Source: a virus
Length of the DNA: 26,482 nucleotides
Strand: one strand, 5' to 3'
IMG/VR virus record: IMGVR_UViG_3300042478_000653
Location: 1-26,482 of that record
Shown: positions 1-3,804 of the stretch, piece by piece
Layout: each line of letters opens with the position of its first letter
Position numbering within the stretch: the stretch's first letter is position 1
Made by a program: the position numbers and the translations under genes
Notes under the pieces: generated by a model
Seen by the model: the letters and a program-made list of their open reading frames with translations, nothing else
Database searches by the model: none
What the model was told of the DNA's origin: nothing

Positions 1-338
1 TTCATCTTGTCATGATTACCACTGTTGATGAAATCAATCCATCTTTGGAAAAAAGTTCTTAAATCTTCTGATTGGTGTTCTGATGAATATACCTGTATTG
101 CCCAATCAGCTGCTGATCTTTCTGCTGGGAATTTCACAGGTCTACCTCTATAATTTAGATTTATAGAACCAACACTAGAACCTGGAAATTGAGTTGCTTT
201 GCAATAAATTTCAAGTGCCTGGTTAAAGACACTTGAATTGATTTGTGATCTTAATGAAGATGGAATGCCACCAGTTACTTTAAATCTGTTGGACTTTACT
301 CCTACGAAATATTTTCTAAAATCATCTATTTTACCCAT
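1..338 (-). CDS. Second tail tube protein, gp19 paralogue (partial, C-terminus beyond left edge)
   Basis: This is the N-terminal 112 codons of a tail tube subunit, the protein that stacks as hexamers to form the inner tube through which DNA passes. It starts with MGKIDDFRKYFVGVKSNRF and is clearly homologous to the complete gp19 directly upstream (338-844). Shared blocks are MGKID, the FPGSSVG/VPGSSIG segment, GRPVKF, ER, DWA(I/V)QVY and the WID motif near the break. It differs by an insert of several residues around positions 27-42 (IPSSLRSQINSS). The ATG shares a base with the gp19 stop codon (TAATG), so translation is probably coupled, and no strong Shine-Dalgarno is seen. It could be a tube subunit, a tube initiator or cap, or a diverged copy; which one cannot be decided here. 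The reading frame stays open to base 1. Confidence 0.88.
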   Translation of the reverse strand, partial: MGKIDDFRKYFVGVKSNRFKVTGGIPSSLRSQINSSVFNQALEIYCKATQFPGSSVGSINLNYRGRPVKFPAERSAADWAIQVYSSEHQSEDLRTFFQRWIDFINSGNHDKM

Positions 339-844
339 TAGATATATTGCCAATAATCGTAAGTGAGTGTTAAAGTGAATTCAGCGAATGTATCTGGTGC
401 ATCATAGCTCAAATCTACAGGTGAAATGTCTACTGGAAAACAATGAACCAGTTTAATTTTACGTTTGTATAATGGGGTAGATGATGTATTTGTCATGTCC
501 TGATAATGAACTTCCCAATCAGCAGTGTAATCATAATTTACTTCGTGATCTGATCTACTATCCATTTTATCGATCCAGTCTTCAATAACTTTACGAAGGT
601 CAGTTTTTGATGAATCATATACCTGTACTGCCCAATCAGTATATGTTCTTTCACCTGAGAATTTCACAGGTCTTCCTTTGAAACCAACTGGAATGATTCC
701 TATACTTGAACCAGGCACAGATCCTGCCTTAGCATAGATTTTAAAATCTGGAATATCAACATTAACTGGTGTTTTACCAAAAATTTCAAATCTATTTGCT
801 CTTACACCCTTAAAAGATTGTCTGAAAATATCTATCTTTCCCAT
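338..844 (-). CDS. 19: Tail tube protein gp19
   Basis: This is the major tail tube subunit of a contractile tail. The 168-aa length fits T4 gp19 (163 aa). Diagnostic features are the MGKIDIFRQSFKGVRANRF N-terminus, the VPGSSIG and GRPVKFSGER segments around residues 43-66, the DWAVQVY motif, and a C-terminus of alternating polar and hydrophobic beta strands ending in LTYDYWQYI. It lies directly after the sheath gene gp18, as in T4. A strong Shine-Dalgarno (AGGAG, 851-855) sits at good distance before the ATG. The TAA stop overlaps the ATG of a second gp19-like gene. Identification is firm from sequence and gene order; whether both copies enter the virion is not known. Confidence 0.95.
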   Translation of the reverse strand: MGKIDIFRQSFKGVRANRFEIFGKTPVNVDIPDFKIYAKAGSVPGSSIGIIPVGFKGRPVKFSGERTYTDWAVQVYDSSKTDLRKVIEDWIDKMDSRSDHEVNYDYTADWEVHYQDMTNTSSTPLYKRKIKLVHCFPVDISPVDLSYDAPDTFAEFTLTLTYDYWQYI

Positions 845-858
845 TATTATCTCCTAGA

Positions 859-2091: not shown

Positions 2092-3804
2092 CTAAAAAAC
2101 CCAGAATTGAGTGGAAATATTATTTTTACGATCATTACGATCAAACCAGACATCATTGTTCAAGACTTCACCAATATCACCTCTTCCGTCCTCAATAAAT
2201 CCAAACGGAACTATCTCAGCCTCTATTTTTTCTATTTCCTCATTGAACATCTCAACACGTATATCTTTATTTGTTAATGTTTCAAAAAAGTCTTGACGTG
2301 TTGCCCAAGAAAATAAAACTAAACACATAACAAGATCGTCTGTATGACCATCATCTGCTCTGAAAGAAACACCATCTGCAATAAAAGTTGTTAATTCATC
2401 AATTGTATCTGAATCCTCAACAACGATTTTATCTTGTTCTATAAGATTCTTGAGTATCGCACAACCTAACTTCTTGACAGGATTTGTTGTTCTGACTCCT
2501 AACAGAAGTCTATTACCACCACCCATTTCAGTGATTGTCTGACCCTTAGTTCCTTTGAAATTAGATTTAATCAAATTTTCATATTCTAAATCATTATGCA
2601 AGATGTCGGCAACCTGTGAGCCAATATCATTTACTTCTACTAAAACATATGCATTATTATATTTTTTACCAACTGCACGTATATAAGATGGAAGAAGTAA
2701 TGGAGATACTACATTGCTTTTAAATCTAGCTACGACTCTATAAGGCATTGTAGTAATATCAACTACTACGAATGCACTGTTATCTTTTCCTTGCCCTCTA
2801 GCCACATCCACGGTTATGAAATACTGATGATCTGGATTTTCTTTTTCATCCGTCCCTTTTATTGGATCTTCATAAACCAATAAACCTTCACCATTTCTAT
2901 GTCTTGGTTTACCATAACTTAATTGATTTAATTTATTAGCATCTATAAGAGTATTAGCAGAACCTATGAATGAGCAATTAAATTCCGCATCAAATTGCCT
3001 TTCAGAAGTATTTTTGATTTGCTGTTCTTTCCATGCATCATCACGTAGTGGACCGCCTGGATATTGTGGAATCTCTTTCCAATTAACTTCAAATGGAACA
3101 TATTCATTTTGTTTTGATATAGCAGCTTTCCATAGCTGATAATACATATTCAACCCTTTAGGCGTTGAAATGATAATCATTTGAGTACTTTGACCAGCAG
3201 TAATTGTTGGATACACAGATGAAAAGAATTCTTCGGCTACTGTAGTTGGAACGAACGCAAATTCATCCAAAAAAATTATATTGTAACTTCCACCACGAAC
3301 AGCAGATGATGACGTTGCTGCTGCTAATATTTTAGAACCATTCTCTAAAACAATAGATCCTTTATTCCACTCAACAATACCTTGTTGAAGCCAGTTTGGT
3401 AAATATTCATATGCTTCACGAATTCTTGCAAGAATATCTCTAGCTGTATTCAATTTATTTGCAAGAATACAGACATTCATATTTTGATTAAATAAAACTT
3501 TATGTAAAAGATAACAACAACCAACGGTAGTTGTTTTTCCAGCCTGCCGAGCAAGTTTACCAATAACGAATCTATTTTTTTCTAAAGTACGAATAAGTCT
3601 TTCTTGGTAATCATATAGATCAAAGTCTGTTATACCTTTATCTAATGTAACTACTTTGACATATTTTCTAGCAAAATATACAGGATCACCAGCACATTTC
3701 ACATATTCTTCTACTTGCTCTTTTGTAAAGTCAATCTTAACACCAATGGGTTTTAGATTGGCATTTCCAAGATAACCAGGTTTTTTCTGATATTGACTAG
3801 ACAT
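2092..3804 (-). CDS. 17: Large terminase subunit gp17 (packaging ATPase/nuclease)
   Basis: This is the motor protein that pumps DNA into the prohead and cuts the concatemer. The ATPase half shows a Walker A of the T4 type (ARQAGKT, residues 85-91), a Walker B with catalytic glutamate (IIFLDE, 176-181) and a coupling motif (IIISTPKG, 210-217). The nuclease half shows the RNase H-like acidic residues: D333 in ITVDVARG, E390 in VLVEVND, and D489/D490 with a nearby histidine in DDGHTDD. The length of 570 aa is close to T4 gp17 (610 aa). The start overlaps the end of gp16 by eight bases, so the subunits are probably made by coupled translation. Order gp16-gp17-gp18 is as in T4. All key residues appear intact. 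Confidence 0.97.
   Translation of the reverse strand: MSSQYQKKPGYLGNANLKPIGVKIDFTKEQVEEYVKCAGDPVYFARKYVKVVTLDKGITDFDLYDYQERLIRTLEKNRFVIGKLARQAGKTTTVGCCYLLHKVLFNQNMNVCILANKLNTARDILARIREAYEYLPNWLQQGIVEWNKGSIVLENGSKILAAATSSSAVRGGSYNIIFLDEFAFVPTTVAEEFFSSVYPTITAGQSTQMIIISTPKGLNMYYQLWKAAISKQNEYVPFEVNWKEIPQYPGGPLRDDAWKEQQIKNTSERQFDAEFNCSFIGSANTLIDANKLNQLSYGKPRHRNGEGLLVYEDPIKGTDEKENPDHQYFITVDVARGQGKDNSAFVVVDITTMPYRVVARFKSNVVSPLLLPSYIRAVGKKYNNAYVLVEVNDIGSQVADILHNDLEYENLIKSNFKGTKGQTITEMGGGNRLLLGVRTTNPVKKLGCAILKNLIEQDKIVVEDSDTIDELTTFIADGVSFRADDGHTDDLVMCLVLFSWATRQDFFETLTNKDIRVEMFNEEIEKIEAEIVPFGFIEDGRGDIGEVLNNDVWFDRNDRKNNISTQFWVF

Follow-up and report, generated by a model that had tools for sequence, protein, structure and literature searches.

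Two tandem gp19 tail tube genes in a clade of T4-like viruses

The stretch of DNA analysed here (the window) is the whole record IMGVR_UViG_3300042478_000653 of an uncultured T4-like virus, 26,482 bases in length, and it carries two adjoining genes of the gp19 tail tube family, A and B. B is a second, diverged tube gene that is intact in related contigs. We put at about one half the probability that B is a real functional tube subunit, probably a minor type that forms one or a few rings in a tube otherwise built of A.

Two adjoining tube genes and their surroundings

The minus strand of the window follows the T4 order, gp13, gp14, gp15, gp16, gp17, and gp18, and ends with the two tail tube genes (Table 1). 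The stop codon of A (TAA, 340-338) and the start codon of B (ATG, 338-336) have base 338 in common; the ORF finder prefers for B a TTG five codons upstream. The first-pass annotation had described a tandem gp19 pair with a common TAATG junction, and the open reading frames, the sequence, and the phrog_45 matches of both genes bear it out. At the sequence level, the presence of two gp19 genes in tandem is confirmed far beyond chance. The motifs named earlier as common to A and B are present, and the insert ascribed to B is real: aligned with A, B of contig L001 has eight extra residues at about 34-41 and two more at about 87-90.

Table 1 Features of the window around the tail tube genes
Feature	Position	Strand	Basis
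B, second gp19 paralogue, 5' 112 codons; rest beyond contig end	1..338	minus	phrog_45 8e-16
TAATG, junction in which TAA (A) and ATG (B) overlap at base 338	336..340	minus	sequence
A, gp19 tail tube protein, complete, ATG start, 168 aa	338..844	minus	ORF; phrog_45 2.3e-31
Ribosome binding site of A (AGGAG); none of similar strength for B	845..858	minus	anti-SD pairing, A -7.3 vs B -1.5 kcal/mol
gp18 tail sheath, 395 aa	859..2046	minus	PF17482 7e-11; phrog_23 7e-48
gp17 large terminase, 570 aa (context)	2092..3804	minus	PF03237 1.1e-24; PF17289 1.2e-15

Since the window is the whole record, B is interrupted where the contig stops. Three other IMG/VR contigs (L001, L002, and L003) show 0 differences from window bases 1-844 and complete the gene: B comprises 180 aa from MGKID, and gp20 starts 8 bases after it. 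The earlier concern that the second copy might be truncated just outside the window thus fails. Orthologues of B are found in six further contigs (L004-L009), and in all nine contigs B has an uninterrupted reading frame at the same place, as it has in the window as far as it reaches. The order gp18-A-B-gp20 is seen in the eight contigs that show both neighbours. The one-base overlap of A and B recurs in L001-L008; L009 has a 31-base gap. An assembly artefact or a broken gene is ruled out by the identical DNA in three contigs and the orthologues in six more.

Between A and B of L001, identity is 46% over an alignment of 175 aa, with a score of 156 bits. Both match phrog_45, annotated as tail tube, with 7.8e-27 for the whole B of L001. 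When clade profiles are compared with solved structures, T4 gp19 is the best match for both (A, 2.3e-15; B, 2e-9). PF06841 matches A at 9.8e-5 and 22.6 bits, under the curated cut-off of 28.2; the window part of B matches nothing in Pfam at E up to 10, and the whole B of L001 has no match to PF06841 at E up to 1. PF06841 also gave no match when run against the window's own record, where all controls were silent too, so the result is not read as absence and phrog_45 was used. AlphaFold models of A (pLDDT 70) and of B of L001 (pLDDT 65), both of fair confidence only, resemble gp19 with TM scores of 0.48 to 0.59. The best PDB match of the B model is the T4 tube (5w5f, 1.3e-6), and that of the A model is a Klebsiella phage tube (9ev2), followed by 5w5f. 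B is less acidic than A (net charge 0 vs -3 in L001 and -3 vs -8 in L009). Both genes are like T4 gp19 (PF06841, phrog_45) in family match and in the order gp17-gp18-gp19-gp20, and probably in fold. As the first-pass annotation had it, T4 has one gp19, located between gp18 and gp20, whereas this clade has two, the second diverged.

The gp18 sheath is short, with 395 aa in the window and 394-413 aa in the clade and neighbouring clades, compared with 659 aa in T4. Three very large adjoining ORFs of 1510, 995, and 904 aa (window:8652-18904) have GPTG-rich N-termini and many cysteines and are possibly fibres; the first has a weak Collagen match (2.2e-4) and the second a weak Lcl_C match (1.8e-6), both below cut-off, and the third matches neither.

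The terminase frame of L064 (L064:2250-5081) contains a long in-frame insertion that is intein-like (Intein_splicing 0.0018, below cut-off), and the same holds for L063, L007, and L008. The insertion ends in ...VHN-C, which we take to be an intein motif. A complete HNH/NUMOD3 endonuclease ORF lies in another frame inside the insertion (L064:2899-3663; NUMOD3 6.5e-7, HNH 8.3e-5). Over this ORF the terminase frame has 0 stops in 762 bases, compared with at least 6 (mean 15.7) in 2000 synonymous shuffles of the endonuclease, and both frames seem to be kept open. In L062, whose contig begins inside the insertion, there are only about 166 insertion residues and no endonuclease ORF. The terminase of the window is without the insertion.

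Occurrence, origin, and constraint of the second copy

Queries with A, B, and the terminase yielded 89 distinct viral contigs, a sample biased in that two queries target tube genes and the terminase search supplied the best 80 of 209, with possible near-copies among the samples. A tube gene is visible in 64 of the 89 contigs; it is flanked by gp18 and gp20 in 54, and the remaining 10 do not show both flanks. Among the 54, 44 have one tube gene, eight have two (L001 and L003-L009, all of this clade), and two have three (L024 and L025). L002, one of the 10, shows A, B, and gp20, with no gp18 in view. A single gp19 stands beside gp20 in the named records Mosig, S-CRM01, Melnitz-3, pf16, DLP_6, vB_VmeM-32, Cr30, SynMITS9220M01, phiM7, and T4 and, by profile, in the unannotated contigs L011, L012, and L047.

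Vibrio phage phiKT1024 has three consecutive tube genes and Campylobacter phage NCTC12673 has two. In L024 (3836-5680) and L025 (2420-4277), three consecutive, strongly diverged tube genes lie between gp18 and gp20, the third without a Shine-Dalgarno sequence. In phiKT1024 (L044:2823-4403), a gene annotated as putative chaperonin GroE sits between the sheath gene and the three tube genes. Sheath genes are duplicated in tandem too: L079:10539-13104 and L083:10691-13245 each contain two adjoining gp18 ORFs of about 420 aa.

A tree of 43 tube proteins recovers A and B each as a clade (support 94/95 and 100/98) and the two clades as sisters, with modest support of 81/79; the A+B grouping holds at 77/82 when gp3 and gp54-like rows are added. 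On the age of the duplication, which the first-pass annotation had suggested judging by phylogeny, the tree places A and B as sisters, with B a young gp19 duplicate. Relative to the ancestral sequence, the two copies have diverged unequally: of the 51 columns conserved in at least eight of nine single-copy relatives, 47 are retained in A and 34 in B. Where A and B are fixed for different residues (27 positions), the nine single-copy relatives agree with A in 18 cases and with B in 7, and 12 more distant single-copy tubes agree with A in 13 and with B in 9. All ten nearest single-copy tubes (L055, L056, L103, L061, L065, L070, L034, L081, L077, and L060) score more bits to A than to B of L001. 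These patterns would be explained most simply if the tube gene had been duplicated in tandem once in this lineage and A had kept the old role. By terminase, the one-tube contigs L055, L056, and L103 are as near the window as the two-tube L009 (identity figures of 79% and 77% for L055/L056 and L059, and of 78% for L103), so loss or exchange of a tube copy in the L055/L056/L103/L009 branch is also possible. An origin in common with the extra copies of Campylobacter and Vibrio phages and of L024 and L025 is not favoured; those rows lie elsewhere in the tree, but they are long-branched.

The ratio dN/dS is below 1 in all eight pairs compared, both for B (0.046-0.667) and for A (0.05-0.30), indicating purifying selection on both genes. 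B has the higher ratio in six of the eight, with its top value of 0.67 in L001/L004, and between L001 and L009 A is 62% and B 50% identical. B is not always the faster copy: the pairs L005/L008 and L007/L008 are more similar in B than in A.

Predicted pairing with the anti-Shine-Dalgarno sequence is stronger for A than for B in four of seven viruses and tied in three. The energies for A and B are -7.3 and -1.5 in L001, L004, and L005, -8.7 and +0.1 in L009, and -4.2 for both genes in L006-L008. Within the clade, gp18 ranges from -7.3 to -9.2 and gp20 from +0.4 to +1.0. Strong sites also precede gp13 (-7.3) and the terminase (-6.0) of the window, so the strength of the site is a weak guide to copy number.

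Three phrog_45 genes are present in 11 of 14 named phage records; the other three records are a 26.5 kb fragment with two, NCTC12673 with four, and phiKT1024 with matches in five or six places. One of the three genes is gp19, and one directly follows gp23 and is annotated as gp3 or head-proximal tip in S-CRM01 and SynMITS9220M01. The third lies, in S-CRM01, two genes before a gp48-like gene; we label such genes gp54-like, and the rows so labelled do not form one clade in the tree. The sister record G017 (156.7 kb) has three such genes, gp19, gp3-like, and gp54-like. Both clade contigs that are long enough (G002 and G003) carry, besides A and B, one more gene that clusters with annotated gp3; the one scanned matches phrog_45 at 2.5e-30. 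B therefore does not stand in for gp3, and its identification as the gp3 tube terminator is ruled out, B grouping with A. Identity with gp54 is not favoured, as B groups with A; the longest clade contig (33,340 bases) ends short of the gp54 region.

Candidate roles of B

We propose that a T4-like lineage duplicated its tail tube gene in tandem and that A stayed the main tube subunit. B, having kept the gp19 fold, would have become a distinct tube subunit that enters the virion, probably in smaller amounts than A and probably translated by re-initiation after A. Within the tube that A builds, it would make up a single ring or a small number of rings, most likely at one end. The first-pass annotation had offered a first ring, a last ring, or a mixed tube as the place of the second copy; the second, intact, diverged tube gene stands, and the three placements are indistinguishable from sequence.

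A tube in which A and B co-polymerise along the whole length, as alternating rings or mixed hexamers, is the main rival, a possibility we take seriously but doubt. It accords with the B model, which appears to have the full tube fold and no added domain, with the equal Shine-Dalgarno scores of A and B in L006-L008, and with what is described for SPP1, where two forms of the major tail protein occur at about 3:1. Two gp19 types are likewise reported in CP220 virions, whose authors could not say whether the types are mixed. It sits less well with four of the seven viruses, in which B has no good ribosome site, and with the loss from B of many residues that single-copy tubes and A keep. The comparison of L003 with L004 speaks for the mixed tube, since A and B there change as if the pair were kept matched. 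In 150-base windows, these two genomes are 93-100% identical over the terminase, 95-100% over almost the whole of gp18, and 99-100% where gp20 begins, and through A and B they are 86-97% identical, with two dips. Residue differences number 40/348 in A and B together, 10/626 in gp18 and the first 231 residues of gp20, and 2/570 in the terminase; the difference between the tube genes and gp18/gp20 gives a Fisher p of 6e-11, a value that the linkage of residues makes too small. The tube gene pair (L003:4039-5090) is thus a patch of raised divergence in otherwise near-identical genomes. Between L001 and L004, synonymous divergence is 0.19 in A and 0.11 in B compared with 0.03 in gp18, which points to import by recombination.

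The joint change of A and B fits a co-adapted pair and would also fit their plain neighbourhood on the genome. It is rather unlikely, in our estimate, that A and B are a co-adapted cassette exchanged between phages while sheath and portal stay constant, two coevolving gp19 proteins building a special tube section in a division of labour beyond that of gp3 and gp54. We consider it very improbable that two antigenically different tube proteins, or their exchange, serve escape from a host defence that senses the tube, such as DSR2. DSR2 is reported to sense the tail tube protein of another phage type, and in L003 and L004 the two tube genes have changed jointly between flanks that remain similar; yet the raised synonymous divergence points to recombination and not to selection as such, and a defence should detect two targets more readily than one. 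Slightly less credible still is a redundant B that is on its way out or is kept for dosage only. The weaker constraint on B than on A in most pairs would suit redundancy. Against it, B is open and in place wherever it is seen, across a divergence of A down to about 60% identity, and dosage would not account for the 46% identity of A and B. The minor-subunit reading of B remains the one we prefer.

Other phages with more than one gp19

Timms 2010 describes several gp18 and several gp19 genes in the Campylobacter phages CP220 and CPt10 and, by sequencing of tryptic fragments, at least two types each of gp18 and gp19 in mature CP220 virions, with mixing left open in that account. For vB_CcoM-IBB_35, three gp19 genes are reported, with all products among the virion proteins by ESI-MS/MS. 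In the NCTC12673 record, genes annotated 'gp19 tail tube protein' and 'II' are adjacent. Like the present clade, these T4-like phages have multiple gp19 genes. They differ in that the Campylobacter extra gp19 rows lie elsewhere in the tree from A and B, that gp18 too is present in several copies in CP220 and IBB_35, and that in NCTC12673 the two gp19 genes do not adjoin gp18 and gp20. The three strongly diverged consecutive copies of phiKT1024 and of the marine contigs L024 and L025 likewise lie elsewhere in the tree. Extra gp19 genes, and more than one type in virions, are thus already published for Campylobacter phages according to these reports, and this clade is a further, separate case of extra gp19 genes.

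Special end rings of tube-fold proteins also have precedents. According to a review, which also covers the two tail protein forms of SPP1, the T4 tail has rings of gp48 and gp54, 24 rings of gp19, and gp3 as terminator; gp3, gp54, and the AlgoCIS tube initiators Alg5 and Alg7 are described as tube-fold paralogues that form such end rings. Those proteins are old, strongly diverged, and encoded apart from gp19, whereas B is a young gp19 duplicate.

The contractile tail tube is usually pictured as one repeated protein. Additional gp19 genes are seen in Campylobacter and Vibrio phages and marine contigs as well as in this clade, whose copies appear to have arisen apart, so tubes built from several kinds of subunit may be a recurrent feature. 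Having two tube copies that split clearly into A and B, and a single sheath gene at the site, the clade offers a clean place to ask about mixing.
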